Of a stretch of DNA of 64,000 bases, positions 155-64,000 are shown piece by piece. The position numbers and the translations under genes were made by a program. The stretch is from a virus, in IMG/VR virus record IMGVR_UViG_3300032304_001060, positions 30,729-94,728 of that record, one strand, 5' to 3'. Position 1 is the stretch's first letter. Each line of letters opens with the position of its first letter. Under the pieces are notes generated by a model. It worked only from the letters and a program-made list of their open reading frames with translations, had not been told where the DNA came from and searched no databases.

Positions 155-1036
155 ATGACCACAGATACAAAATCTCTCTTCGTACCAACACTCGCATCAA
201 CATCTCACTACATACCTCGCACATTCGCTGGCCACGTCGGCGAATTTGAAACATTCGATTACGCACTTGAAAACAATCTCAATGTGCTCATCGAAGGCGA
301 GACTGGAACTGGTAAGACTTCTGGCGTTATGGCGTACTGCGCCCAACGTCATCTCAACTTCTTTGCTGTTCCTTGCAACAGCGCAATTGATTTCACTCAG
401 GTGATCGGCGGTCTATTCCCGAATGCTGATGGCAAATTGGAATGGGTTGACGGCGGTATCACTCGCATCGTTCGTGAGGGCGGTGTCTTGTTGATTAACG
501 AATTAAACAATGCGCCGAAGAATCTCTCTCAGTACCTCATGTCATTACTTGATGATCGTCGCTCGATCACTCTCATGGGTCATGGCAACGAGGTTGTGAC
601 TGCACACAAGGACTTGCTGATCGTTGCAGATCAGAATCCAAATTATCGTGGCACTCAACTTCTCAATGAGGCATGGAAAGATCGCTTCGAGATTAAATTG
701 CGTTACAACTACGACAACGCGATTGAGAAGAAGATCGTTACATCGTCAGCACTTCTGGAACTTGCGAATGGAATTCGTTCTACATCGCGCCAGAATGAAT
801 ACGCATCAGATCGCGGAACGATCTTCGAGACCCCAGTATCGCCTCGTCTACTTAAGACGTTCGAGAAAATCGCTCGTGATCTTTCATACGACTTTGCAGT
901 CGATAACTTCGTCAACAACTTTACCGATGAAGAACGCCCTGCGGTGAAGATGCTCATCGAAGGTGCTTCATACAACATCAAGGAAGAACTCGGTCTTGCT
1001 GTTGATTCAATCACCACCGAACACGCCAACGCGTAA
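155..1036 (+). CDS. MoxR/CobS-like AAA+ ATPase
   Basis: This 293-residue protein belongs to the AAA_5 (dynein-related, MoxR/CobS) class of ring ATPases. Walker A is GETGTGKT at residues 48-55. The Walker B position reads VLLINEL (111-117), so the usual Asp is Asn115 while Glu116 is kept; an NE variant could change hydrolysis. The next gene, 9 bases downstream, encodes a VWA protein, the usual partner of this class: the ATPase remodels a target that the VWA subunit presents. In cobaltochelatase this pair is CobS/CobT, and phages of the T4/cyanophage type carry CobS homologues. The phage role is unknown; cobalt chelation, chaperone and host-takeover roles are all open. The ribosome site ahead of the ATG is weak. 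Confidence 0.85.
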   Translation: MTTDTKSLFVPTLASTSHYIPRTFAGHVGEFETFDYALENNLNVLIEGETGTGKTSGVMAYCAQRHLNFFAVPCNSAIDFTQVIGGLFPNADGKLEWVDGGITRIVREGGVLLINELNNAPKNLSQYLMSLLDDRRSITLMGHGNEVVTAHKDLLIVADQNPNYRGTQLLNEAWKDRFEIKLRYNYDNAIEKKIVTSSALLELANGIRSTSRQNEYASDRGTIFETPVSPRLLKTFEKIARDLSYDFAVDNFVNNFTDEERPAVKMLIEGASYNIKEELGLAVDSITTEHANA

Positions 1037-1045
1037 GGAGATTAC

Positions 1046-2944
1046 ATGTCATCAATCAAACTCTATGAAGATTTCCTTTTAGGAGATCAATCAGAGGCTA
1101 AGGAACAACGTCGTATCGCAGATGAAAAGCGACAGAGACTTGAACGATTCACTCAATTCTTTGGTCGTGTGAATTCTGCATTCACATTCCGCAAAGTGAC
1201 TGTCAAGGTTGAGGACTCACCTATCGGTGCACCAGCGTGGTCTGGTGCATCGGAGGTGACATTCAATTCTCGTTTACTTGATCTCGATAGTCCGCAATCA
1301 ATTGCTGGCTTGAAAGGTCTTGATCTACACGAGATCAGTCACATTCTTTATACGCCACGTGAGGGCTCTGAGATATTTGATTACGTCAAAGAGAACGATT
1401 ATCTACAGGCATACAACTGCCTCGAAGATCAACGTATCGAGACACTCTTTACATCAAAGTATCCGTCAACGATTGATTGGTTCACAGCCACGATCTTGAT
1501 TCACTTCGTTGATAAGCCAGAGGCATTCAACGCTTCTTATCCGTTGCTACGCGGTCGTAGATACTTACCCGTTGAATTGCGTGCACGCTCTCGTAACGCA
1601 TATATCAATCAATCTAATCTCGATGAAATCTGCGAGATCGTCGATGCCTATCGCTCTCTTATCTTTCCTACTGATACTGAACAAGGAAAAGATTTAATTG
1701 CGCGATTCCACAAACTATTGCCAAAGCAGGATTCACCTGCTGGCGAAGGACAGGGCACACAGACTGTCACAGTACGGATTCAAGACCCGTTCGGACATGG
1801 TGAGAGGCCACAGGAGGGTATTGAGTCATCGGTTGATTCACGCCCTGTATCGCCACTTAAGCAGAAGCAGGATCGTGCACGTTCACAGGCCAACGATGGT
1901 GAAGATGATTCGGCTCTTGCTGATTCACTTCGCAACGATGATCTCGTGATCGATATTGATCTATCTGGTGCAGGTGACGATGGTGATGCTGATGCTGATG
2001 GTGATGGTGATGATTCTTTGGATTCTGATAATTCATCTGATGGTGATTCTGCTGGTGATTCTGCTGGTGACATGACAATCATTCAAGATTTTCTCGATGA
2101 TCTTTTGAATGACGAAAATGTTGCTAGTGAAATCAACAACATCATTCGACAAATTGGTGGAGCACCTTCTCTTTCTACCAATGATTCGAAAGAACCGAAG
2201 ATCAAGGACTACATGTCGCTCAGTCCAGATGCAGATACATTTCATGCATCACTTTCTTTCGGTCGTGAATTAGAACGATTGAAAGCATCATTCGACCCTG
2301 CATGGGATAAGTACGAGTCACAGGGGCGTATCGATGCACATCGTTACCTTCGCGGTGATGATCTCGATACAGTCTTTGATCAATGGAATGAGGGTCGTGA
2401 AGATGCGACTGAAATTTCATGTGTGATCATGCTCGATACTTCTGGCTCGATGAATGGCACTAAAGCAACATCTGCATACAAAGCCATGTATGCAATTAAA
2501 CGTGCACTCGACAAGATCAATGCAGAATGTACTGTGATCACATTTAACGATTCAGTACACACGCTTTATCGTGCATCAGATAAGGCTGGTAACACTCTTC
2601 GTCATGCTGGAACTGGTGGCGGTACAAACGCTGATGAGGCAATCAGGTATGCGACCAAAGTGTTGGCCGAGACTGAGAAGCCTGTACGTGTTCTCTTCGC
2701 AATTACCGATGGGGATTGGTACGGCGATCAGACTCTCAACGATGAAGCGATCAGTCGCTTGTCTCGTGCTGGTGTGCTTACAGCACTTGCCTACATTCCA
2801 GAAAAAAAATCGTCAGTAAATCTTGCTGACATCAATTCTCATCAATGCGAGATCAAAGCAGTCGTGCGTAATCCAATTGACCTAATTGGAATGGCTCGAT
2901 CAATTACTCGCTACGCGATCAATCGCAGATTGATCAACAACTAA
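1046..2944 (+). CDS. CobT-like VWA protein with HExxH motif
   Basis: This 632-residue protein is the partner of the upstream AAA ATPase. The N-terminal part has HEISH at residues 95-99 followed by acidic residues about 30 positions on (E127, E132), the layout of zinc metallopeptidase-like domains found in some VWA proteins. A very acidic Asp/Gly/Ser-rich linker (about residues 300-345) follows, as in CobT. The C-terminal third is a von Willebrand A domain with a full MIDAS: D464-x-S466-x-S468, a Thr in the GGGTNADE segment and Asp in ITDGDW. A GGAG ribosome site sits just ahead of the ATG. The function is inferred to be metal-dependent remodelling or proteolysis driven by the ATPase; the substrate is unknown. 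Confidence 0.85.
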   Translation: MSSIKLYEDFLLGDQSEAKEQRRIADEKRQRLERFTQFFGRVNSAFTFRKVTVKVEDSPIGAPAWSGASEVTFNSRLLDLDSPQSIAGLKGLDLHEISHILYTPREGSEIFDYVKENDYLQAYNCLEDQRIETLFTSKYPSTIDWFTATILIHFVDKPEAFNASYPLLRGRRYLPVELRARSRNAYINQSNLDEICEIVDAYRSLIFPTDTEQGKDLIARFHKLLPKQDSPAGEGQGTQTVTVRIQDPFGHGERPQEGIESSVDSRPVSPLKQKQDRARSQANDGEDDSALADSLRNDDLVIDIDLSGAGDDGDADADGDGDDSLDSDNSSDGDSAGDSAGDMTIIQDFLDDLLNDENVASEINNIIRQIGGAPSLSTNDSKEPKIKDYMSLSPDADTFHASLSFGRELERLKASFDPAWDKYESQGRIDAHRYLRGDDLDTVFDQWNEGREDATEISCVIMLDTSGSMNGTKATSAYKAMYAIKRALDKINAECTVITFNDSVHTLYRASDKAGNTLRHAGTGGGTNADEAIRYATKVLAETEKPVRVLFAITDGDWYGDQTLNDEAISRLSRAGVLTALAYIPEKKSSVNLADINSHQCEIKAVVRNPIDLIGMARSITRYAINRRLINN

Positions 2945-39185: not shown

Positions 39186-39893
39186 CTAAGCGATCTGGTT
39201 TATCGTCAAAATAACTGAAGGAATCCCTGGCACTATCCCGCTTGCGGCTACTGCAGGGAGAAAGACGGACGTATTTGTCACCGAAACAACTACTTCAAAG
39301 TAATCCCCAGCCAATGCTGTGGAGTGGAAATTCCACGCAGCGATAAGTTCTGATGTAGATCCTTGAACTGCTATCTGACTTGCAGAGTAAGGTACGTTTA
39401 CACCGTTTTTTCTAAGCCAAATATAGGCATGCTGTACGTTTTCGTTGGACTTATCGAACTGGGCAGAGAACTGGATGTTGTAGGCTCCAGATTGTTGAAC
39501 TGTCATTTTAGACTGATCCACGAGCGTTACGCCTTGTTCGTTCTCAATGGTGTCACACTGCATTGGATAAGCAGTGTTTGCAGTTAGTGCAGTTATGGTC
39601 TGCGTGTTGTGCCAAGAGCCATGGCAAAAGATTCCTTGGGCAGAGTTCCCCTCACCAAATTCACCGATCCAAACTGGGTACTCAGGGTCTCCGCCAACGT
39701 ACATTACCCAGCAGCCTGTCCCTATAGCGGGTGGGCGTTTGGTTGAGAGCATCGGCCACACCCAGTCACTGACCTGTGTTCCCGTAGGTTGTGCCTTTAC
39801 CTTTACTCGACGTAGTTTTTCAGGATCTTTATTGTCTACCACTACTGCACGATAAACTCCGTTTAGACGTTTTATGAAATCTTTTTCATCCAT
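39186..39893 (-). CDS. gp5-like spike protein with C-terminal jelly-roll
   Basis: This 235-residue protein opens with an OB-like spike/hub segment (VYRAVVVDNKDPEKLRRVKVKAQPTGTQVSDWVWPMLS, ending near GEFGEG), typical of gp5/VgrG central-spike proteins. Its last ~140 residues read as a C1q/TNF-like jelly roll (YIWLRKNGVNVPYS, SGAYNIQFSA), unusual as a spike extension. Start ATG 39893 overlaps the upstream stop. Confidence 0.75.
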   Translation of the reverse strand: MDEKDFIKRLNGVYRAVVVDNKDPEKLRRVKVKAQPTGTQVSDWVWPMLSTKRPPAIGTGCWVMYVGGDPEYPVWIGEFGEGNSAQGIFCHGSWHNTQTITALTANTAYPMQCDTIENEQGVTLVDQSKMTVQQSGAYNIQFSAQFDKSNENVQHAYIWLRKNGVNVPYSASQIAVQGSTSELIAAWNFHSTALAGDYFEVVVSVTNTSVFLPAVAASGIVPGIPSVILTINQIA

Positions 39894-41659
39894 CAAAGTG
39901 CGCTTACAGTGAGGTTTGCATTCTGGAATCGGAAGATTTCATTTGGGCGTCCAAGTAAGGTTGAGTACGCAGTAAACGCACCTGTACCTGTAGCACTACC
40001 TGCACTCTGCGTGCTGGCAACACTGAAGGTAGTAGTTGTGACTGCCGTTACTACCGCGGCAGTAACGTTATATCCTGATGGGCTAAACCCAGTTACAGTG
40101 ACAGTAGAGCCAACGCTAAGTCCATGTGCGGTGGTGTTAGAGTTGTAGGTGATCGCTGTTCCAGAAGCGGTTGCTCCTGTGAGAGAGATTCCTGTTCTGT
40201 GTAGGAAAGTTACACGCGACGTCTTAATCCCAGGAATTTGTTGCACAACAAACTCAATATCTTGAGGATAAATGGTTTCTTCAAAGAAACGGTTTGCGTA
40301 CCCAAAGTCACTTAAGAACTTGGCTTTTATAGCCTTCTCAATTTGAGCGGTTGTATATTGTGGAAGTTTTGTATAACGAATAGTGACGGAGGCGTCTACG
40401 TATGTAGGGGGTGATACCGTGACAGAAGTTCCAAGTAGAACTTTATCTTCTAGATAATCTTCTACATCGGATTTTAAATTAGCGTACTCAATCGTCGTTA
40501 CACCGAGTTCATCGTATCCTGGAGCAGGTTCAATGTCGATAGAGTTTCGTGTCGGAGCAATATAGAGTGTCACAGAGTTCCACACACTAGCGGTAGCGTT
40601 TGCTTTTGAAACATCGTTTACACTTAAGGCCAAGTCTGCGTAATCCTGAAGGGTTACTGCTCTGTTGTTAGCACGAAGAGTTAATGGAGCGGCGTTTCGT
40701 ATTTGATCTAATGTTTCTGGATCAGACCCGCCAACAGCAGCCTCTGTGTTTATTACAGTTATTTTGCCTTGAAGAGCGATCAATTCACTCTCTGACAATA
40801 CTGGAACATAATAGATCGTGTCGATAGTACTCTGATCAACATTTCCACGATTTCCACCTCCGACGATGTACGTCGCACGTATGTCTGAATAACGTGTTGG
40901 GATAAGTCCTGACACTCCGTCTCCAAAGTAAATTGAGACAATGTCATCCTCGTCAACAGACAATTCAAAGACCTGATCATTTGGACCGTAATCAACGATG
41001 TGCTTTACTAAAGACCACTTTGAGTAGGCATCACCGTCTTGAACATAAACTTCAACCGAGTCATCAACAACAGGTGTCTCACCTAGTTCAAAAATCATGT
41101 TTGGAGTTCCCGTAGACGTTCCGATCTGTTCTCCATATTCATTTGAGACTGTTGCAACTAACGATACAGGAAGACCTTCTTGTGCTGACACTGTTTCTGT
41201 ACCATTTACAGCCCCCACCTTTGCAGGAATGATGACCTCAGAGTCAGTTGTAAAGTAAATCTTTTGGACAGTGTCATTTATAGCAATGTCTCCGTAGAAA
41301 ACAGATCCCTCTGGAAGAGTGATTGCAGAAGCAGAGGAGTTAGAGAACTCTAAAGTTGTAAACGATCTGGTGTAGCCCGAAGGTGTGTAACCATAACTTT
41401 GAGCAATGTTTAACACACTAGAGCGTTGGGTCGCTGTAGATATAAAAGACTCATTAGCATTTCTATCGATATAAAAATTTATCAGGTCTCCAAGGTAAGC
41501 AAACGCCTCAACCAAAGCAATACCAAAGTCTGCAGGGTCTTCTCCTGTCCAATCTGGTACCCGACTTTGAATTCTTGTAATCAACTCTTCTCGTAATGAG
41601 TAGTAGTCTTTACTTGTGTAGTCAACTGAAATGGGCGTACTGGATGGTGGCGTACTCAC
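39893..41659 (-). CDS. Baseplate J/gp6-like wedge protein
   Basis: This 588-residue protein matches baseplate J: PADFGIALVEAFAYLGDLINFYIDRNANESF, then the central GLIPTRYSDIRATYIVGGG region and the ending used by gp6-type wedge proteins. An Ig-like or Thr-rich insert (about 500-560) precedes the C-terminus. It forms the baseplate wedge with the gp25-like neighbour. Confidence 0.88.
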   Translation of the reverse strand: MSTPPSSTPISVDYTSKDYYSLREELITRIQSRVPDWTGEDPADFGIALVEAFAYLGDLINFYIDRNANESFISTATQRSSVLNIAQSYGYTPSGYTRSFTTLEFSNSSASAITLPEGSVFYGDIAINDTVQKIYFTTDSEVIIPAKVGAVNGTETVSAQEGLPVSLVATVSNEYGEQIGTSTGTPNMIFELGETPVVDDSVEVYVQDGDAYSKWSLVKHIVDYGPNDQVFELSVDEDDIVSIYFGDGVSGLIPTRYSDIRATYIVGGGNRGNVDQSTIDTIYYVPVLSESELIALQGKITVINTEAAVGGSDPETLDQIRNAAPLTLRANNRAVTLQDYADLALSVNDVSKANATASVWNSVTLYIAPTRNSIDIEPAPGYDELGVTTIEYANLKSDVEDYLEDKVLLGTSVTVSPPTYVDASVTIRYTKLPQYTTAQIEKAIKAKFLSDFGYANRFFEETIYPQDIEFVVQQIPGIKTSRVTFLHRTGISLTGATASGTAITYNSNTTAHGLSVGSTVTVTGFSPSGYNVTAAVVTAVTTTTFSVASTQSAGSATGTGAFTAYSTLLGRPNEIFRFQNANLTVSAL

Positions 41660-48264: not shown

Positions 48265-48864
48265 TTAGAATGCTGCTGCTTGTGTTGTTAGGTTTGGTGC
48301 CCAGTTTACGTCAAAACCTTCATGAACTAGAGACATCTGCTCTACAAAGAGAGCATTGTCTCCAGCGTTAAGGTCTGAATATGCCACAGCAGTTGGCCAG
48401 CAGTTGTATACGTGGAAACGCATGGCTACATGGTCTTTGGTTCCAACTGTGTCTGTTGATGTCTGAGCACCAGGAATTGGGTGAGATAGAACTTCAATCT
48501 CTAGATCGCAACGGAAGTTCTTGTCTACGCCACGTGTTCCGCCACCTTGTACGGTAGCAAACATGTTACGCATCCAATCCCAGTTCTGCTTTGTTCCAAG
48601 GATTACGCCACGTTGCAGTGTAATCGGTGTAAACGAAGTTTGACCAGGGATCTGGTGAACAGTGGTGTTGTATCCACCTTCACGGTAAGGGATAGAGTCA
48701 GTTGTTACGGCCATGCCAGATACAGAGGTAAATCCAAACGTTGCTGAATTTAACGCTGCCAATGACGTGTTACTTGAGTCTTGCGGAATAAATGTGACTA
48801 GAAACCTAAAGTTTCTAAGCGGATCGGTTAACAGGGTTGACCGATTGTTGATGACTGTTGCCAT
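48265..48864 (-). CDS. gp19-like tail tube protein
   Basis: This 199-residue protein starts with TDPLRNFRFLVTFIP, then VSGMAVTTDSIPYREGG and DWMRNMFATVQG, the T4 gp19-like tube pattern. It polymerises around the tape measure. It lies between the sheath gene and the chaperones, as in contractile-tail loci. Confidence 0.9.
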   Translation of the reverse strand: MATVINNRSTLLTDPLRNFRFLVTFIPQDSSNTSLAALNSATFGFTSVSGMAVTTDSIPYREGGYNTTVHQIPGQTSFTPITLQRGVILGTKQNWDWMRNMFATVQGGGTRGVDKNFRCDLEIEVLSHPIPGAQTSTDTVGTKDHVAMRFHVYNCWPTAVAYSDLNAGDNALFVEQMSLVHEGFDVNWAPNLTTQAAAF

Positions 48865-48884: not shown

Positions 48885-50417
48885 TTAGTTCAGCGTCTTT
48901 TGGCTGAGGTCGATGACGATGAACTCTGCTGGGTACTGAAGTGCCACACCAACTTGGACGTGGACCTCTCCATTAGCGATTTGTTGCTCAGAGTTGTTTT
49001 CCGCGTCGCACTTGACGAAGAAAGCCTGAGCAACGGTTGCTCCACGAAGACCGCCTTGATTGCGGTACTCGTTGAGGAATACAGTGATGTTGCTATTAAT
49101 ACGTGCCCACAAGCGCTCATCGTTGTTTTCAAAGATTGCAAACTCTGTGAGGTTCTTGAGGTTCTTGCGGATGTAGATAAGTGAACGACGCATGTTGACA
49201 TACTTGTTTGCTGTTCCATCCTGCAGGAGAGTGCGTGCACCCATGACCGCTAATCCAGCGCCAGGGATCTGACGAATTGGGTTAACAGGAGAGTTAGCAG
49301 AATTCATGGAATCAAGTTCTGCTGAAGTGAATGTCTTTTCTACAGCAACAACTCCTTGAAGAGTTGCAGTGATACCTGCAGGAGCCTTAAATACTCCTCT
49401 AGATGCATCTGTAGAAAGATAGAGTCCTGCAACTGCTCCTGCTGGAGCAACCTTGCGAAGAGCCCCAGCACCGCGACCTAGTGGGTCAGCGATAAAGAGG
49501 TGTGGGTAGTAGACAGCAGCGTGGCTAGTATCTGTAAGACCAGCAGCAAAAGAAACTGCTTCTGTAACAGTCCTGTTCTCGTCGGTAGAGACAACTACAA
49601 AACCATTGTTCTCTTCTGCCCATGCCGTTGCATCATTAAATACTGAAGCCTCCGCTGTTGCAAGTGAGTTCCAAATTCCTGGAAGGAATATCACAAGAGG
49701 GCGATCTAAAGATGAGAACCCTGCAAAAACTGAAGCGCTTGTTGATTGATAGTTGGTGTAATCTGCAGCAACTGGAGTAGTTCCATCTGTTCCTCCTGTA
49801 AGAGGATAAACTCCTAGAACAGGAACTCCTGCAGCACTATTACTAATGGTGATGTTTGCTGACACAAGATTGACCACCGTTTGAGCATAGTCACTTGACG
49901 TTGGATCGCTAAATACAACGTTTTCGTAACGCTCCAGTACAATGTCATCATCAAAACCTGCAGTTACTTTTCCACTAACGATTGTGCCTGCAACACCTGA
50001 CTCTTTGAGAACAGTCAGTGTGTATGTGCTTGCAACACTTCCTGCAGTTACTTGAACACGAAGGTTATTTCCATCTGTTCCTTTGTTCTTGGAAGTTACT
50101 CTGAAGACAGTGACTGCACCTGATGTTGCTACATCTACAGTGGCAGCGGCTGCATTTGCTGCTAGGAGGCGCTTGACGTAAAGTTCACGGCCACCATTGT
50201 TGAAGAAAGCCGCTACTTCAAAAGTAGCGGGGTAGGAAGCATTGTAGCCTCCAAAGGTCTTGGTAAATTCATACCAAGAGTTAACGAGAGTTACTGCTTC
50301 TGGTCCTTGTCCAAGAGGTGCGACAATCGCACCAGCAGCATTTGCTGTTACTCCACCTGCGAGAGGTGCGGTAAGGAGGCGCTCACTGATGTAAACACCT
50401 GGGCGGCTATAAGCCAT
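48885..50417 (-). CDS. Contractile tail sheath protein
   Basis: This 510-residue protein begins SRPGVYISERLL, ends with the sheath C-terminal pattern (INSNITVFLNEYRNQGGLRGATVAQAFFVKCD), and is the largest beta-rich repeat-bearing protein in the module. It is the outer contractile tube of the tail. The middle contains variable insertion domains. Confidence 0.92.
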   Translation of the reverse strand: MAYSRPGVYISERLLTAPLAGGVTANAAGAIVAPLGQGPEAVTLVNSWYEFTKTFGGYNASYPATFEVAAFFNNGGRELYVKRLLAANAAAATVDVATSGAVTVFRVTSKNKGTDGNNLRVQVTAGSVASTYTLTVLKESGVAGTIVSGKVTAGFDDDIVLERYENVVFSDPTSSDYAQTVVNLVSANITISNSAAGVPVLGVYPLTGGTDGTTPVAADYTNYQSTSASVFAGFSSLDRPLVIFLPGIWNSLATAEASVFNDATAWAEENNGFVVVSTDENRTVTEAVSFAAGLTDTSHAAVYYPHLFIADPLGRGAGALRKVAPAGAVAGLYLSTDASRGVFKAPAGITATLQGVVAVEKTFTSAELDSMNSANSPVNPIRQIPGAGLAVMGARTLLQDGTANKYVNMRRSLIYIRKNLKNLTEFAIFENNDERLWARINSNITVFLNEYRNQGGLRGATVAQAFFVKCDAENNSEQQIANGEVHVQVGVALQYPAEFIVIDLSQKTLN

Positions 50418-54821: not shown

Positions 54822-55571
54822 TTATTTTAAGTTTCCTCGCTGATGGTCTGGGTATGGGGCGTTGTCTAAGTGAACGCCTTTAAAATACCTTCTTCCAGCC
54901 ATATGGGGCTTCTCTAGATCATCGGTAGAACGTTCTTTTCCTAAAGCGCTACTTTCCGCAACTTCATTTGCGTGTAGTTCTTTGTCCTGTATTAGTGCTA
55001 ACTCAAACCCCTCAACAAAATACCTTGGTATAGGGATAAAGGCTCCCAACGCGTCACCCTTCTTTACAGAGACAGTGTGATTTGGGACTGTAACTTTAAG
55101 GTTAAAAGTAAAGTCTCTTCGAATGTTGTCTGTTTCAATAACCCCCGTCATAGCAACGCAACCTTCAACGAACATGTTAGGTGGCTGAATGGTCATCAAG
55201 TTAATTCCAGGAGGTGTTTTTAAAGCAAAGTGATTTTGGACTGTAATAATCCCAGAACCAAATCCATTTGTAATAAATTGTTTTGGAAACTCTTCATCAT
55301 CTTTAAAAGTTATTACAGCAGGTAACAGTTCCCCATACCATACAACATCAAAGTCTCTTGCAGATTGAACCATAAACCCATATTGATTTCCAACACTTAA
55401 AGGTAAACAGTAGTAAAAGTGTGAGGTAAACCAATCTCTTTTTGGAACACCTTTTAGCGGAACGATGATGTCCTTATAGAATCCGTCATTATCAAGAGAA
55501 TGAGGTACAACCATAAGGGTATTGTTTGGGACTTCATGCCCAGGATCATTAAGATAGTTTTTTTCAGTCAT
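54822..55571 (-). CDS. DUF6065-like hypothetical protein
   Basis: This 249-residue protein has HFYYCLPLSVGNQYGFMVQS and PRYFVEGFELALIQDKELH, which resemble DUF6065 of viruses; the assignment is moderate. It sits beside the glycosyltransferase and oxygenase genes. Confidence 0.6.
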   Translation of the reverse strand: MTEKNYLNDPGHEVPNNTLMVVPHSLDNDGFYKDIIVPLKGVPKRDWFTSHFYYCLPLSVGNQYGFMVQSARDFDVVWYGELLPAVITFKDDEEFPKQFITNGFGSGIITVQNHFALKTPPGINLMTIQPPNMFVEGCVAMTGVIETDNIRRDFTFNLKVTVPNHTVSVKKGDALGAFIPIPRYFVEGFELALIQDKELHANEVAESSALGKERSTDDLEKPHMAGRRYFKGVHLDNAPYPDHQRGNLK

Positions 55572-56415
55572 AGAGGAGTCCCGTTTCTTTACAAAACTTT
55601 AAAAACTTTTGATAATTAATTTTATAATCTTTTAATAATTCTTTCTTTGATTTTTTATTTTCAATATCAATTAATCTTGTTACCCTGTTTTTCTTGTCCC
55701 AAGGTTTGGGGTCACTGTTATACGCAATCCTGTCTATTGCGTAGAAGTGATAGAATATTGGATCGGTAAAAGCACAGACTTCATATCCTGCTTGATATGC
55801 TCTAATTGAGTTTATTGTTTCTTCCAAAAAGAAACTAACATCAGAAATAATAGGTACTTCTAGTAAGAATTTTTTTTCTGAAAAAAGTAAGGCTCCTTGT
55901 ATGTAGTAACTTTTTGCAGTACTCGATATCCGATTTTTTACTCCCCACTCACCAAACGTAACTCCTTTAAAAGAACACATAACGTGAGATTGATCTTGTA
56001 ACGGTTGTCTATTTCCAGTTGAGTCAATCGAATAAGCAGCAGGATAAGAAGATAACACCAATTTTGGTTTTGTTGTTTTTTCTTTTTCATACAAAGCCAT
56101 TAGTTTTGTGTCCCACGACTTTTCCGAGAACATATGGGCATCTAACTGTAGGTAATACGTGTAGTTGCTAAATTGAGAAACCGCGACCGCTCTAGCCCAA
56201 GAAACTCCATACGAATCATCTGGATTAATTTTTATGTATCGAAGTTGTTCCATCTCAATAAAACTAAGATCAGGATGATCTGTGCTCTGAGATACTATTG
56301 AAAACAAAAGATTTTCTGGGTAATCAGCATCCTCAAAAAACCGTTTAACTGTATTTTCTAACTCAGTCTCCATGTAAGAGACTATCGAAATTAGAATCTT
56401 CCTATTGTTGACCAT
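55564..56415 (-). CDS. Glycosyltransferase (GlcNAc-transferase-like)
   Basis: This 283-residue protein has an N-terminal nucleotide-sugar fold (ILISIVSYMETELENTVK) and YYLQLDAHMFSEKSWD, where the D-x-H corresponds to the metal site of GlcNAc-type transferases (PF11397-like). It probably glycosylates a phage protein, DNA or host surface sugar. The start at 56415 was picked to limit overlap with the upstream gene (14 bases). Confidence 0.75.
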   Translation of the reverse strand: MVNNRKILISIVSYMETELENTVKRFFEDADYPENLLFSIVSQSTDHPDLSFIEMEQLRYIKINPDDSYGVSWARAVAVSQFSNYTYYLQLDAHMFSEKSWDTKLMALYEKEKTTKPKLVLSSYPAAYSIDSTGNRQPLQDQSHVMCSFKGVTFGEWGVKNRISSTAKSYYIQGALLFSEKKFLLEVPIISDVSFFLEETINSIRAYQAGYEVCAFTDPIFYHFYAIDRIAYNSDPKPWDKKNRVTRLIDIENKKSKKELLKDYKINYQKFLKFCKETGLLYD

Positions 56416-56944
56416 CTGCATAAGCCCAAAATGACGCAATAGTGTAACGTGTATTTCCTTCTACCTTTGTTACTCCGTGCAAATGGTCTGCATCCCCTAA
56501 ATGAATTGCAAGTTTCCCACTTTCTGGCGTTACTTCAATATTGTAATTTGGATAGTATGTATGGCCACCTTCATAATCCTCATTTAAATAAATGATGGCT
56601 CCAAATTTTCTGTGCTCTAATCCTTTTACTTCTGTATTGGTCATGTCATCTGCATGAGGGGGCTGCTCCATACCAGGGTACCAACGACAGATAGTTAGCC
56701 CATCTTCTCTTACTTTTTTCCCGTAAGAAGACTCAATGACGTCTTGAACTCTGCGGGATACATCCACCATAAAATCACCAAGTTCGTTCCCGAAGTATTC
56801 GTAGGCTGCTTGTACTCCGATAGTTCTTTTATCCCAAAAGTCTACAGATGAGGGTTCCCATAATTCGGTTTCTTTTACAAGGTTTAAAACAAACAAGACT
56901 TCTTCATTAGTCAAGAACTTATCAACGATCGTTGTTTTTAGCAT
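56402..56944 (-). CDS. 2OG-Fe(II) oxygenase (prolyl-hydroxylase-like)
   Basis: This 180-residue protein has the iron triad H97-x-D99 and H156, and R166 for 2-oxoglutarate, with the surrounding strands (EQPPHADD, DADHLHGVTKVEGNTRYTIASFWA). It likely hydroxylates a protein side chain or DNA-bound target. The poly-Pro protein nearby is one conceivable substrate (inference). Confidence 0.85.
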   Translation of the reverse strand: MLKTTIVDKFLTNEEVLFVLNLVKETELWEPSSVDFWDKRTIGVQAAYEYFGNELGDFMVDVSRRVQDVIESSYGKKVREDGLTICRWYPGMEQPPHADDMTNTEVKGLEHRKFGAIIYLNEDYEGGHTYYPNYNIEVTPESGKLAIHLGDADHLHGVTKVEGNTRYTIASFWAYADGQQ

Positions 56945-57172
56945 TTACCATTTTCCTATCGGGCATTTTGCTGCTTGTAGTTTGGTTTTGAGTTCCATAA
57001 AACACCCACATTTCTTACACTGTTTTGTTAACTTTACCAATTCTGGGCATTCCATGCATATCTGCATTCGCTCTATATTTATGGTGCTTTCTGCATACTT
57101 GGTTTGTGGGTTTAAAAAATCTAACGGAGTTACACCATGTTTTTCCCGATACTCCTCCCACCTCGACTTCAT
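56945..57172 (-). CDS. DUF6171-like zinc protein
   Basis: This 75-residue protein has ICMECPEL, CKKCGCFMELKTKL and CPIGKW, the recognised pattern of small phage DUF6171 proteins. Four or more cysteines suggest zinc binding. It lies directly upstream of the oxygenase. Confidence 0.75.
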   Translation of the reverse strand: MKSRWEEYREKHGVTPLDFLNPQTKYAESTINIERMQICMECPELVKLTKQCKKCGCFMELKTKLQAAKCPIGKW

Positions 57173-57173
57173 C

Positions 57174-57554
57174 TTAAGGAACTAATCCATTCATATTTCT
57201 ATCTGTTAGTACAAATGCGTTATCAATAAACTTAGCATGTGGAGAACTGACATAAAGACCATACGGATAGTCCAGCATCTTTAATACCTGTGGATTACTC
57301 AGTAGAATACTTCCAAAGTACTCGCTAGTCTGGAAATCTTCCAAAATGATTCCATCTTTTAGTAGGCGCACTGTTATGCCGTCATGATCAGGGTGTTCAT
57401 TAGATATGTCGACTACTTCATCGGCATTTAAAAAAATGTCAGCATGTTCTACGCTTAACGCCAGATCATATAAACAATCTTGGTCAATTACCCATACTAA
57501 TGCTATTCCATCTGTTCCAGTATGAACAAAGTGGATACCTTCATCAGTTAACAT
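57174..57554 (-). CDS. Hypothetical protein
   Basis: This 126-residue protein is strand-rich and acidic and was not recognised. An AAAGGAG ribosome site lies upstream, just after the hairpin at 57575-57610. Confidence 0.6.
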   Translation of the reverse strand: MLTDEGIHFVHTGTDGIALVWVIDQDCLYDLALSVEHADIFLNADEVVDISNEHPDHDGITVRLLKDGIILEDFQTSEYFGSILLSNPQVLKMLDYPYGLYVSSPHAKFIDNAFVLTDRNMNGLVP

Positions 57555-57614: not shown

Positions 57615-58220
57615 TTAGCAAGCGAAGACATTGAATGAGCCAGATGCTGGTGAACAAGTGCTTCCTGCACCAAGTTCTCCGCACGATGATGTGCTGGTAC
57701 AGCATGCGACCGCTATCTGTCCACTGGTGCATCGCCTTAGGGTAGGAGCAGGCGGTGGTGGCGGTGGTGGCGGAGGTGGAGGAGGTGGAGGAGGTGGAGG
57801 AGGAGGAGGAGGTGGAGGAGGAGGAGGTGGAGGAGGAGGTGGAGGAGGTGGAGGAGGTGGAGGAGGTGGAGGAGGAGGAGGAGGAGGTGGAGGAGGAGGA
57901 GGAGGTGGAGTAGGTGCCACAGGAGTAACAGAGTTACTTGCTGCAGATGAGTCTGAGAGAACTGAATAATCTGTTGTGCCAGAAATTGTAAAAGTATAAG
58001 CCGTTCCATTTGAAAGGCCTGAAACTGTAATAGGGGAACTTGATCCAGTGCCTGCAATCGATCCTGGAGAAGAAAGTACGGTGTAGGTGATTCCGTTCTT
58101 GCCAATATAAGAGGAGGCTGTGAAAGTTACAGTAGCAGCGGCGTCACCAGCAACAGCACTGCCAGTACCAGGTGTCGTTGGTTTTTTACCGCTAGAACCT
58201 GTAGTTCCCAGAACTGCCAT
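57615..58220 (-). CDS. Fn3-like protein with 53-Pro tract and Cys-rich end
   Basis: This 201-residue protein has an N-terminal Ser/Gly/Thr-rich beta domain like a fibronectin type III repeat (TFTASSYIGKNGITYTVLSSPG to SDSSAASNSV), a run of 53 Pro (57908-57750) and a 40-residue Cys-rich end (CTSGQIAVACCTSTSSCGEL) with six or so cysteines. This layout suits an exposed, rod-like virion or surface appendage tip. The start at 58220 overlaps the upstream stop. Confidence 0.7.
   Translation of the reverse strand: MAVLGTTGSSGKKPTTPGTGSAVAGDAAATVTFTASSYIGKNGITYTVLSSPGSIAGTGSSSPITVSGLSNGTAYTFTISGTTDYSVLSDSSAASNSVTPVAPTPPPPPPPPPPPPPPPPPPPPPPPPPPPPPPPPPPPPPPPPPPPPPPPPPPPPPAPTLRRCTSGQIAVACCTSTSSCGELGAGSTCSPASGSFNVFAC
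57750..57908 (-). repeat. 159-base CCN tract coding 53 consecutive prolines
   Basis: On the minus strand this is an uninterrupted run of CCA, CCT and CCG codons; the + strand reads as GGN-type repeats. The third position varies, so it is a codon-level, not a strict nucleotide, repeat. Ribosomes stall on poly-Pro, so host EF-P would matter. Length changes in this tract are likely between relatives. Confidence 0.9.
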
Positions 58221-58582
58221 TACGCACTCAAATCGCCAACAAGAACCCAAGTATCTGTAGCACGCTTAATTAAAGTTGCAGATGCCCACTGTGTTCGTAA
58301 CTTCAATCCAGGTGTTGCATTGATAGTGACTCCAGCGCCTGCGGTAATTGTGAATTGTCCTGTAGCAACTTGGAGCATATCGATCTGAGCGCCGATTGGG
58401 AATGGCACGGAAGAGTTAGGTGGCACAGTAAGAGTTGCAGCAGTGGTGCTGTTGTTTAACTCCAGGAAGCGATCCTTATCAGCCAACACCAATGTGTAGT
58501 TGTTGGTTGTGATAGTCGGAGTGGCAAGGTTCTTAGAGCCAACTCCTACAAATGCTGAATCGCCATTGCTGCGAATTGCCAT
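58220..58582 (-). CDS. Fibre-like beta domain protein
   Basis: This 120-residue protein shares its domain with the 53742-54179 protein: YTLVLADKDRFLELN, TLTVPPNSSVPFPIG, TGQFTITAGAGV, ATDTWVLVGDLS. Such domains are common in phage surface fibres. Precedes the poly-Pro gene. Confidence 0.65.
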   Translation of the reverse strand: MAIRSNGDSAFVGVGSKNLATPTITTNNYTLVLADKDRFLELNNSTTAATLTVPPNSSVPFPIGAQIDMLQVATGQFTITAGAGVTINATPGLKLRTQWASATLIKRATDTWVLVGDLSA

Positions 58583-60826: not shown

Positions 60827-61723
60827 TTAGTAGTATAAATAAATTACGCCGTTGCCGCCATTGCCGCCTGTACCTGACCTATTGGTACCACCACCACCAC
60901 CACCACCATCTCCACCGTTACCGCCAGTGTTTCCAGATGCGTTGGCGCCAGCACCGCGATAGCCACCGCCACCGCCACCAGCACCATCAGTTACAGCACC
61001 AGTGCAAGTTGAACCAGTACCACCATTATACAAATCACCATTGCCGCCTGCGCCACCTGTTGTGGTTCCAGTAGGAGAAGCATTTGTATTATTGGCACCT
61101 CCACCACCGCCACCAATTAAACCTCTGCCACCTGCACCGCCAGTGGTTGAAGTAGCCGCAGTTGCGGTGTTTCCATAACCACCACCACCACCTGATACAC
61201 CAGCGCCGCCAGCAACTCCATTTGTTGAACCACCACCACCGCCGCCTCCATAACCAACAGCGCCAGTAGCAGCGGCGGAAGGAGCGCCTGTATATGAAAC
61301 TCCACTTGCACTTGGTCCACCATTTCCAGCACCACCACCTGCGCCACCCATTGTTCCAGCAAGCGCTGCTAGGACACCACCACCACCAGCACCACCACCA
61401 GCAAAAACCATCCCAAATATAGTTGAGCCACCAGTACCACCACTGGAAACTGAACCACCAGTTCCTCCTGCACCTACAGTGCAAGTATTTGTTACATAAG
61501 TCCAACCAGCAGAATAACCACCACCACCACCACCACCACCTGCGCCACCAGCAACTGCGGTTTGGCTTCCACCACCACCTCCGCCGCCAATGCAAACTGC
61601 ATATACGCGTTTGATTTCAGCGGGGATTCCAGTAACCGATCCTGATGAAGTAATTGTTTGTTGTAGTTTTAATCCCAATGGAACATCAGAAAATGATGAA
61701 TTTGTATTTATCGTTTCGCTCAT
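60827..61723 (-). CDS. Glycine-rich fibre/adhesin-like protein (paralogue 1)
   Basis: This 298-residue protein has an N-terminal 45-residue stem (residues 1-45, containing LGLKLQQTITSSGSV) and a body of over 50% Gly with Ala, Ser, Thr and Tyr, ending in VIYLYY. Such poly-Gly bodies can form polyglycine-II sandwiches, as in the tip adhesin of phage S16 gp38; that fold is inferred. It is one of at least four tandem paralogues. Confidence 0.75.
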   Translation of the reverse strand: MSETINTNSSFSDVPLGLKLQQTITSSGSVTGIPAEIKRVYAVCIGGGGGGGSQTAVAGGAGGGGGGGGYSAGWTYVTNTCTVGAGGTGGSVSSGGTGGSTIFGMVFAGGGAGGGGVLAALAGTMGGAGGGAGNGGPSASGVSYTGAPSAAATGAVGYGGGGGGGSTNGVAGGAGVSGGGGGYGNTATAATSTTGGAGGRGLIGGGGGGANNTNASPTGTTTGGAGGNGDLYNGGTGSTCTGAVTDGAGGGGGGYRGAGANASGNTGGNGGDGGGGGGGTNRSGTGGNGGNGVIYLYY

Positions 61724-61733
61724 TTAGTTTCCT

Positions 61734-62657
61734 TTAGTAGTAAAGATAAAGTACGCCGTTACCACCAGTGCCGCCTGTTCCTGAATTGTTTGCGGCTCCA
61801 CCACCGCCACCACCATCTCCGCCGTTACCGCCGTTGTTTCCTGAACCAGCAGCACCTACTCCTATGTAGCCACCGCCACCGCCGCCTGCGCCTGCGGTTA
61901 ATCCTGATGCAACTGTTGAACCTGCACCGCCGTTAAACAAGTCTCCGTTACCGCCAGCACCACCTGTTAAGGCTCCAAGTGGTAGTGCGTTGTTGTTGTA
62001 AGCACCACCGCCCCCGCCAGCAATTAAACCTCTACCACCAGCACCACCTGTTGCAGTGTTTGTAGAACTTGTTTGTAAGGCTGCAGCGCCACCTGAACTT
62101 GATACACCAGCAGCACCTGCACTGGCAGTAAAAGAATTTGCGCTACTTGATGCACTTGGTCCACCAGCACCATAACCTATGGTTCCACCTACTGCTGCGG
62201 CAGCCGATGGCGCACCTGTGTAACTAATTCCACTTGCTGAAGCACTTGGTGCAGCACCAACAGCAGATAATGCACCGCCACCGCCTGCGCCGCCCATTAC
62301 TGTGGCAGTTCCATTTGCAGTTCCAGAGCCACCTGCACCACCGCCTGCAAAAACCATCCCATAAACAGTTTCGCCACCGCGTGAACCATTGGATACGGAA
62401 CCGCCAACACCACCTGCACCTACAGTGCAAGTGTTGGTTACGTAAGTCCAGCCAGCAGAATAACCACCAGCCCCACCGCCACCACCTGCTCCCGTTGCAG
62501 AACCGCCACCACCACCACCTGCAATGCAAACTGCATATACACGTTTGATTTCAGCAGGAATTCCAGTAACTGAACCTGATGAGGTGATAGTTTGTTGTAG
62601 TTTTAATCCCAATGGAACATCAGAAAAAGATGAATTGGTGTTTATTGTTGCACTCAT
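61734..62657 (-). CDS. Glycine-rich fibre/adhesin-like protein (paralogue 2)
   Basis: This 307-residue paralogue shares almost the same 45-residue N-terminus with the previous gene: in the first 46 residues only positions 3 and 46 differ. The body differs more, with extra Ala/Ser and other spacing, and ends VLYLYY. The pattern suggests a fixed attachment end and a variable distal surface. DNA in the shared part differs mostly at third positions. Confidence 0.75.
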   Translation of the reverse strand: MSATINTNSSFSDVPLGLKLQQTITSSGSVTGIPAEIKRVYAVCIAGGGGGGSATGAGGGGGAGGYSAGWTYVTNTCTVGAGGVGGSVSNGSRGGETVYGMVFAGGGAGGSGTANGTATVMGGAGGGGALSAVGAAPSASASGISYTGAPSAAAAVGGTIGYGAGGPSASSSANSFTASAGAAGVSSSGGAAALQTSSTNTATGGAGGRGLIAGGGGGAYNNNALPLGALTGGAGGNGDLFNGGAGSTVASGLTAGAGGGGGGYIGVGAAGSGNNGGNGGDGGGGGGAANNSGTGGTGGNGVLYLYY

Positions 62658-62669
62658 AATAGTTCCATT

Positions 62670-63521
62670 CTAATAGAAAATGTAAAGTATGCCTGCGCCG
62701 CCAGTGCCAGGTGCAGATGAGCCGTGTCCACCACCACCACCACCACCACCCAAACCACCATCGCCACCAGTAAATCCCGAAGCATTAGAGCCGTTACCTG
62801 CAATACCCGCACCACCACCGCCTGAGGTATTTGATGATGGGCTTGTAGAGCCCGTTCCACCTGTGTAAATAGTTCCATCTATACCAATGCCGTTACCACC
62901 GTTACCGCCTGTGCGTGTTCCTGTAGTAGTAGATGCAATTCCACCACCGCCACCAGCAAGACCAGAACCACCATTGCCACCAATGTTTGTTCCAGAACCT
63001 GCGGTGCCATTAGGCGCACCACCACCACCTGAAATACCGTTGCCACCATTAGCACCAGAAGTACCAGTTGCACCACCTGCGCCAGAGCCAACATTGTTGG
63101 AAGCGCCACCAGGAATACCCCAATAATTAGTTCCACCAGCACCGCTATTGCCACCCGCGCCCAGTGTGCCACTATCACCTGCGCCAGCAATGATGTGACC
63201 ATAGCGTGTGTATCCTGCAGAACTTCCATTAGGAACTCCACCTGCACCAATGATGCAAGAAGATTGTGGGATAGTCCAACCCCAAGAGATACCACCTGCG
63301 CCACCACCGTTGCCTTGATTCACGCCTCTTTGACCACCACCAGTCAGAATGACATAGACAAATGGAATATCAGCGGGAATTGTTACCGCACCCGATGAAG
63401 TAATTGTTTGGCGTAGTTGTAAACCAAATGGAACTGCAAAAGATGTTTGTGCAATAGGAGTAGAAGAATTATTCCAATTTAAAACCTGCCCCGTTGGGCG
63501 TTTATTTAATGGGTTTGACAT
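62670..63521 (-). CDS. Glycine-rich fibre/adhesin-like protein (paralogue 3)
   Basis: This 283-residue paralogue has a different start (SNPLNKRPTGQVLNWNN) but keeps the PFGLQLRQTITSSGAVTIPA core of the stem and the Gly-rich body, ending ILYIFY. It is separated by 12 bases from paralogue 2. Confidence 0.75.
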   Translation of the reverse strand: MSNPLNKRPTGQVLNWNNSSTPIAQTSFAVPFGLQLRQTITSSGAVTIPADIPFVYVILTGGGQRGVNQGNGGGAGGISWGWTIPQSSCIIGAGGVPNGSSAGYTRYGHIIAGAGDSGTLGAGGNSGAGGTNYWGIPGGASNNVGSGAGGATGTSGANGGNGISGGGGAPNGTAGSGTNIGGNGGSGLAGGGGGIASTTTGTRTGGNGGNGIGIDGTIYTGGTGSTSPSSNTSGGGGAGIAGNGSNASGFTGGDGGLGGGGGGGGHGSSAPGTGGAGILYIFY

Positions 63522-63529
63522 TTGCTCTC

Positions 63530-64000
63530 CTAGTAAAAAATGTAAAGTATGCCTGCGCCGCCAGTACCGCCCGTGCCACCACCCGAACCACCACCACCAC
63601 CGCCGCCAAGCCCACCAGTGCCACCTAAAGTGGTTGAAGCGCTAGAACCATTAGCAGCGATACCAGCGCCACCGCCACCGCCACCGTTTGTTGAAGTACC
63701 AGTTGTTCCTGTACCACCCGTATAAATAGTTCCATCAATACCTAAACCGTTACCACCATTACCGCCTGTACGTGTACCTGTGCTTCCTAGTGCGCCGCCA
63801 CCACCGCCACCGACTAAGCCTGAGCCACCATTACCGCCCGTATTTGTTCCAGTGCCACCTGCATTTGAGCGCCCAGCACCGCCACCTGAAATACCATTAC
63901 CACCATTACCACCAACAGAATTGAGTGTTGTGTTAGCGCTACCACCGCCACCACCAGCACCAGCAGTTCCACTTACGTTAGCGCTTGCACTAGCCGCGCC
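63530..64000 (-). CDS. Glycine-rich fibre/adhesin-like protein (paralogue 4, partial)
   Basis: The open frame runs from a stop codon at 63530-63532 to the window edge with no start, so it is truncated only by the window. Its last residues (AGILYIFY) match paralogue 3, and the body is Gly-rich with Ala, Ser and Asn. More copies may follow outside the window. Confidence 0.7.
   Translation of the reverse strand, partial: GAASASANVSGTAGAGGGGGSANTTLNSVGGNGGNGISGGGAGRSNAGGTGTNTGGNGGSGLVGGGGGGALGSTGTRTGGNGGNGLGIDGTIYTGGTGTTGTSTNGGGGGGAGIAANGSSASTTLGGTGGLGGGGGGGSGGGTGGTGGAGILYIFY

Follow-up and report, generated by a model that had tools for sequence, protein, structure and literature searches.

We describe a tail-accessory cassette of a tailed phage in which a protein with 53 consecutive prolines is encoded next to a 2-oxoglutarate (2OG) dependent oxygenase of the prolyl-hydroxylase type. 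Many related viruses keep a Pro-rich protein and this oxygenase together, thereby suggesting that these phages build hydroxyproline rods on their particles. Our preferred reading is a virion fibre that is rich in hydroxyproline, is served by a prolyl hydroxylase of its own and in some phages is also glycosylated. We consider it likely (probability about 0.66), but it is not supported by any chemistry.

Organization of the cassette

The window, i.e. the whole stretch of 64,000 nucleotides that was analysed, corresponds to positions 30,729-94,728 of a 94.7-kb virus record. The phage harbors contractile-tail genes (sheath, 48885-50417; tube, 48265-48864; baseplate wedge, 39893-41659), and the cassette is located in the tail-accessory region on the minus strand, where most gene ends overlap or abut. 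In the order of transcription it comprises the following features:

58220..58582, minus strand: tail-fibre-type beta-domain protein, directly upstream of the 53-Pro gene (PHROGs virion structural / minor tail / tail fiber)
57615..58220, minus strand: Pro-rich virion-type protein of 201 aa, the candidate substrate (translation, Pro run, relatives, Fn3 profile)
57909..58220, minus strand: its N-terminal Fn3-like carrier domain, aa 1-104 (profile against PDB Fn3 structures; passes Pfam fn3 in relative L402)
57750..57908, minus strand: its 53 consecutive Pro codons, aa 105-157 (residue-run count; TRF)
57618..57749, minus strand: its Cys-rich C-terminal tip, aa 158-201 (translation; Cys-rich ends in most relatives)
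57174..57554, minus strand: 126-aa protein of unknown family between the Pro-rich gene and the oxygenase gene (relatives in L021, L050, L052)
56945..57172, minus strand: DUF6171 small Cys-rich protein (PF19668, E 1.7e-7), between the Pro-rich gene and the oxygenase gene in most relatives
56402..56944, minus strand: 2OG-Fe(II) oxygenase, prolyl-hydroxylase-like (PF13640, E 2e-8; H97-x-D99...H156, 2OG anchor R166)
55564..56439, minus strand: GT60-type GlcNAc-transferase (PF11397, E 1.5e-29, 104 bits versus a cut-off of 21)
54822..55571, minus strand: DUF6065 protein, the usual downstream partner of the oxygenase (PF19541, E 6e-35; weak dUTPase-like fold)

The oxygenase gene starts 671 bp from the 53-Pro gene, is overlapped by the glycosyltransferase gene and encodes the sole PF13640 protein of the 94.7-kb record. 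The first-pass annotation, made from sequence alone, had described a run of 53 prolines that joins an Fn3-like domain to a Cys-rich tip, 0.7 kb away from an oxygenase with the prolyl-hydroxylase triad. The run, its coordinates and the spacing held exactly, the tip is confirmed by the translation, and the two domain assignments also held on the evidence given below. Elsewhere in the window (155-2944, plus strand) a MoxR-like AAA_5 ATPase is encoded beside a VWA-domain protein.

The 53-proline protein

The reading frame begins at 58220 with an ATG, which shares bases with the stop codon of the upstream gene. Its proline tract, which is by far the longest single-residue run of the window (runner-up 8), is encoded by 35 CCT, 15 CCA and 3 CCG codons; TRF reports it as an array of the 9-bp unit GGTGGAGGA with 17.4 imperfect copies and 87% match. 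The frame is co-oriented with its neighbours, and its N-terminal domain is kept in relatives (51-62% identity) that have their own Pro-rich tails, thus indicating that it represents a real gene rather than the shadow of a poly-Gly frame on the plus strand. The Fn3 assignment rests on weak matches of the family profile to Fn3 structures in the PDB (best E 0.005-0.02) and on relative L402, which exceeds the Pfam fn3 cut-off; Pfam makes no fn3 call in the window copy. The identical 53-Pro tract is present in two records, namely the window and IMGVR_UViG_3300037189_003127, which are possibly not independent. The near-identical relatives L009, L010 and L012 have 25, 27 and 36 prolines behind an unchanged upstream flank, and L009 ends with GI-stop in place of the Cys-rich tip, hence neither the length of the tract nor the tip is constant between close relatives. 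A phage-encoded EF-P, which might help to translate 53 prolines, was looked for and not found, and the N-terminal domain is absent from all isolates of the phage collection searched.

The proposal that the protein is part of a virion fibre is supported only indirectly. The 53-Pro protein itself has no PHROG match; the upstream gene and fused relatives match tail fiber and minor tail families, and in L041 and other relatives a domain of the type encoded at 58220-58582 forms one protein with the Pro-rich tail. These fusions of Pro-rich tails to tail-fibre or minor-tail domains support the fibre idea, and the location on the virion remains an inference.

Two further regions are rich in proline frames or repeats. 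At 60827-64000 on the minus strand, tandem Gly-rich tail-type proteins with near-identical N-termini and PF21722 (Gly_rich_2) are encoded, whose antisense frames read as Pro-rich ORFs. In the same genome, outside the window and about 72 kb off, an unrelated 610-aa protein (L002:14689-16521, minus strand) combines an Fn3-like part with (PSPEPEPTPEP)n repeats, so that Pro-richness alone is no proof of a pairing.

A prolyl-hydroxylase-like oxygenase

The protein encoded at 56402-56944 shows the HxD...H iron triad and a basic 2OG anchor on a DSBH fold, and H97, D99, H156 and R166 are invariant in an alignment of 36 oxygenase relatives. The best matches of its profile in the PDB are all prolyl hydroxylases, i.e. 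the Bacillus anthracis P4H (BaP4H, E 2.5e-10), human P3H1 (6.5e-9), Chlamydomonas P4H-1 (1.7e-5) and the Chlorella-virus enzyme vCPH (6e-5); the P3H1 alignment runs through the distal HGV...R (His-Gly-Val, Arg) motif. Lysyl hydroxylases and TET are far behind, TET/JBP reaching only E 0.5. An AlphaFold model (pLDDT 94) has P3H1, vCPH (E 9e-10, TM 0.72), BaP4H and PHD2 as top Foldseek matches. The nearest solved relatives by profile and predicted fold are thus almost all prolyl hydroxylases. Family, active-site residues and fold of a prolyl-hydroxylase-like enzyme are therewith shown, while the hydroxylation of peptidyl proline is inferred.

Lysine is the 2OG anchor of P4Hs, and arginine occupies this position in enzymes of the P3H and lysyl hydroxylase type. 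The lysine hallmark is not met by the window enzyme. As its Arg anchor has a greater resemblance to P3H and lysyl hydroxylases, we do not class it as a P4H proper and leave undecided whether the inferred hydroxyl group would be placed at position 3 or 4. No close relative of the oxygenase was present among the isolates of the phage collection searched.

Co-occurrence of oxygenase and Pro-rich proteins

Relatives of the oxygenase and of DUF6065 were fetched without regard to their proline content, and a protein was scored as Pro-rich if it contained at least 10 Pro per 30 residues on the oxygenase strand. A Pro-rich repeat protein in sense orientation is located near the oxygenase in 81 of the 86 informative loci, compared with a single weak case among 79 control relatives that lack this oxygenase and were picked by their tail sheath (71-82% identity). 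This contrast is stable over thresholds from 8 to 14 Pro per 30 aa. After clustering of the oxygenases at 80% identity, 33 clusters are Pro-rich, three are not and eight are truncated; 28 of 31 are Pro-rich if five clusters that were found only via a poly-Pro search are dropped. The counts are inflated, because the syntenic cassette is inherited as a linked unit; many loci and controls are moreover fragments, and only 24 of the 79 sheath controls reach at least 7 kb upstream.

The first-pass annotation had proposed to check the co-occurrence of oxygenase and poly-Pro genes in relatives, with the oxygenase kept without any poly-Pro protein as the refuting outcome. The check was strongly positive. 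In most relatives other Pro-rich repeats take the place of strict poly-Pro, and a few oxygenase loci are devoid of any Pro-rich protein. The three clusters without a Pro-rich protein nearby include the clade L124/L338-L343/L350, in which, as in L060, oxygenase and DUF6065 are present and no Pro-rich protein was found within the fetched DNA. In the reverse direction, an oxygenase of this type is missing from the fetched stretch of most viral contigs with poly-Pro. As antisense poly-Gly genes and the shortness of the stretches confound this DNA scan, it shows only that polyproline does not require this oxygenase.

A few single loci are worth recording. L340 encodes a collagen-like GPQGPQGDPG protein 2 kb downstream. 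A Comamonadaceae MAG (L480:9869-11313) harbors an oxygenase and DUF6065 pair amid ordinary chromosomal genes without a Pro-rich ORF. In the bacterial contigs L481 (8541-9562), L484 and L486, a Pro-rich ORF (e.g. PPPMMYAPATPPVTYAP) is located directly before or overlaps an oxygenase relative, an observation without a control for high GC.

Repeat turnover on shared and unrelated carriers

With the N-terminal Fn3 domain as bait we obtained 56 loci with at least 3 kb of downstream sequence. An oxygenase of this type is present in 36 of the 38 loci with a Pro-rich tail and in one of the 18 with another, mostly Gly-rich, tail (Fisher p 3e-11; the corresponding four counts are 25, 1, 1 and 16 after clustering). 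For these numbers the oxygenase profile was iterated and a tail was scored as Pro-rich from 8 Pro per 30 residues onwards; both settings were chosen after an initial count that had given 32/5 versus 2/17 (p 4e-8). The p-values ignore shared ancestry. On the Fn3 tree there are only four changes of tail type, and just one independent pair is well supported in an underpowered independent-pairs test; the contrast among Fn3 carriers hence reflects few evolutionary events.

The tracts of the relatives comprise poly-Pro, VTPP, PPIIATP/IIAVTPP, APPPV, TPPP, PPPVFT and PPFF/PPHF types. The Pro-rich proteins are accordingly not one inherited sequence, and the strict poly-Pro run is only one flavour, with other repeats in most relatives. 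Along a quick oxygenase tree with 85 tips, which were selected because a Pro-rich protein is encoded nearby, at least 20 switches of repeat class occur while Pro-richness persists. At least three unrelated carriers are found, namely Fn3/Ig-like domains, tail-fibre beta-domains (PHROGs tail fiber / minor tail / virion structural) and PASTA (E 6.5e-19), and a short Cys-rich tip ends most of the Pro-rich relatives.

A second clade (L363, L371, L375, L388, L459) exhibits (PPFFPPFFPFF)n or (PPHF)n tails, behind which 5-11 oxygenase genes are located together with a DUF6065 relative. Several of these array oxygenases were confirmed as PF13640 above the cut-off. Such arrays of 5-11 oxygenase genes have, to our knowledge, not been described, with only open-access text being searchable. 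The array of L363 (5751-16457) also includes a short-chain dehydrogenase.

Glycosyltransferase and DUF6065

The first-pass annotation had also suggested hydroxylation followed by glycosylation of proline, which is partly supported by the family of the glycosyltransferase; neither step has been shown chemically. PF11397 is the family of the Skp1 hydroxyproline GlcNAc-transferase, and the GT60 enzyme Gnt1 of Toxoplasma and Dictyostelium transfers GlcNAc onto the hydroxyproline of Skp1 only after the action of a prolyl hydroxylase (PMC6939170). The family assignment also exceeds the curated cut-off in the relatives L439 and L450. GT60 is present in 34 of 161 oxygenase loci versus 2 of 117 others, the latter two being L409 and L452, in which Pro repeats are likewise found on the Fn3 proteins. 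Its restriction to about one fifth of the oxygenase loci makes a hydroxyproline glycosyltransferase plausible here yet optional for the system. Hydroxyproline is a possible acceptor, which is inferred from the family and the association with oxygenase loci only.

DUF6065 was considered as an additional oxygenase and rejected, given that no solved structure matches by sequence and that the structure search yielded a weak dUTPase-like match (E 1e-4, TM 0.35). Loci with DUF6065 and without the oxygenase (L259, L262, L305, L307, L314, L316, L328; L116, L128) have no Pro-rich protein, indicating that DUF6065 is not the link to Pro-richness.

Proposed function and alternative explanations

In the scenario that we favour, the 57615-58220 protein would be a virion appendage whose Fn3 base is extended by a stiff polyproline-II rod with a Cys-rich tip at its end. 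The oxygenase would act as a peptidyl-prolyl hydroxylase that uses Fe(II), O2 and 2-oxoglutarate to oxidise prolines of the rod within the cytoplasm of the host; proline as its target is inferred. In phages with GT60, including that of the window, some of the hydroxyprolines may then receive a sugar, probably GlcNAc, by analogy with Skp1 of Dictyostelium and Toxoplasma. The modification might make the rod more stable and/or conceal or vary the region in contact with the surface of the host, a benefit that is likewise inferred.

The most serious alternative, which we nevertheless regard as unlikely, is that the Pro rod is a mechanical spacer without any need for modification and that the oxygenase, a mere genomic neighbour, has a different target such as host EF-Tu, a ribosomal protein or some other protein of the virion. 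For BaP4H, the closest enzyme with a solved structure, EF-Tu is the reported target (PDB 5v7y title), and both polyproline proteins without the oxygenase and oxygenases without a Pro-rich protein exist. However, Pro-rich proteins persist next to the oxygenase although their repeats and carriers are unrelated, and on one and the same carrier the kind of tail follows the presence of the oxygenase; a host target would demand neither. Much less support remains for a neutral CCT/CCA microsatellite expansion in a linker, devoid of function and modification. The imperfect 9-bp tandem array and the differing tract lengths of near-identical relatives (25, 27, 36 Pro) fit this idea, but relatives stay Pro-rich by different higher-order repeats (VTPP, PPIIATP, PPFF), which do not represent the same microsatellite.

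Equally improbable is an auxiliary metabolic or DNA-hypermodification cassette, in which oxygenase, GT60 and DUF6065 would have DNA, nucleotides or glycans of the host surface as their targets. Other phage 2OG oxygenases do modify bases, the PHROGs label of the best-matching oxygenase family is 'DNA endonuclease', and DUF6065 has its faint resemblance to dUTPases. On the other hand, the profile and fold matches of the oxygenase are protein prolyl hydroxylases, with TET/JBP matched only at E 0.5, the characterised PF11397 members act on proteins, and DUF6065 persists without the oxygenase in phages that lack a Pro-rich protein.

The hydroxyproline-rich fibre can be extended to a bolder reading, for and against which we see equally good reasons: many environmental tailed phages would carry extensin-like, hydroxylated and sometimes glycosylated Pro rods together with a dedicated prolyl hydroxylase, and the 5-11 oxygenases of the second clade would serve its (PPFF/PPHF)n rod as a combinatorial protein-hydroxylation system. 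If the fibre reading is true, it would place eukaryote-type hydroxyproline chemistry on phage fibres, make a particle feature dependent on O2 and 2-oxoglutarate, and provide compact enzymes for the production of hydroxylated or glycosylated polyproline in bacteria.

Relation to known systems

Prolyl 4-hydroxylase genes are abundant among the auxiliary genes of aquatic viruses, and their viral use 'remains cryptic' according to a 2022 survey (PMC9301287). The cassette offers a concrete candidate substrate, which dozens of phage lineages encode next to the enzyme. Hydroxyproline rods of the plant or collagen kind have not yet been shown for any phage, and in the open-access literature we found no paper on a pairing of prolyl hydroxylase and Pro-rich tail fibre in phage. 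The closest viral precedent is vCPH (A085R) of Chlorella virus PBCV-1, likewise a virus-encoded 2OG prolyl hydroxylase and the second-best Foldseek match; hydroxyproline in viral proteins has been claimed (Eriksson 1999, cited in PMC9301287). It differs by its origin from a eukaryotic virus and an identity of about 15%, and the window enzyme has the Arg anchor and, unlike vCPH, belongs to a tailed phage and is encoded beside a dedicated Pro-rich protein.

The PhyA/Gnt1 pathway of Skp1 in Dictyostelium and Toxoplasma resembles the cassette in that a GT60 enzyme with a requirement for hydroxyproline acts after a 2OG prolyl hydroxylase, the window glycosyltransferase belonging to the same Pfam family. 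It modifies, however, one proline of a cytosolic ubiquitin-ligase subunit, whereas the phage protein presents a repetitive rod of prolines. Dense Pro repeats are a trait of hydroxyproline-rich glycoproteins, as seen in the 53 prolines of the window and in VTPP, PPPVFT and TPPP of relatives. Plant and algal hydroxyproline-rich glycoproteins and extensins share long Pro-rich repeats, contiguous prolines, PPPVFT/VTPP-like units and the combination of prolyl hydroxylase and glycosyltransferase, but no homology of the repeats is shown. Extensins are secreted cell-wall proteins that are made in the ER and glycosylated by other glycosyltransferase families.

Collagen-like phage fibres such as the EPcl proteins of E. 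coli prophages also present a repetitive rod on a phage fibre, and P4H is the classical modifier of collagen; G-X-Y repeats, the criterion for such fibres, are absent from the 53-Pro protein. Bacteria and viruses have been stated to possess no hydroxylases for their collagen proteins (PMC3368898). The isolated cyanophages S-CAM4, S-CAM8 and S-SSM5 are similar in having several PF13640-type oxygenases directly after the tail-fibre block; they differ by the distant relationship of these enzymes (about 25-30% identity) and by the lack of sense Pro-rich proteins near them. Each of these three Synechococcus phages (S-CAM8, L559; S-CAM4, L560; S-SSM5, L561) carries 3-5 2OG oxygenase genes, some of which are labelled 'DNA endonuclease', apparently wrongly.
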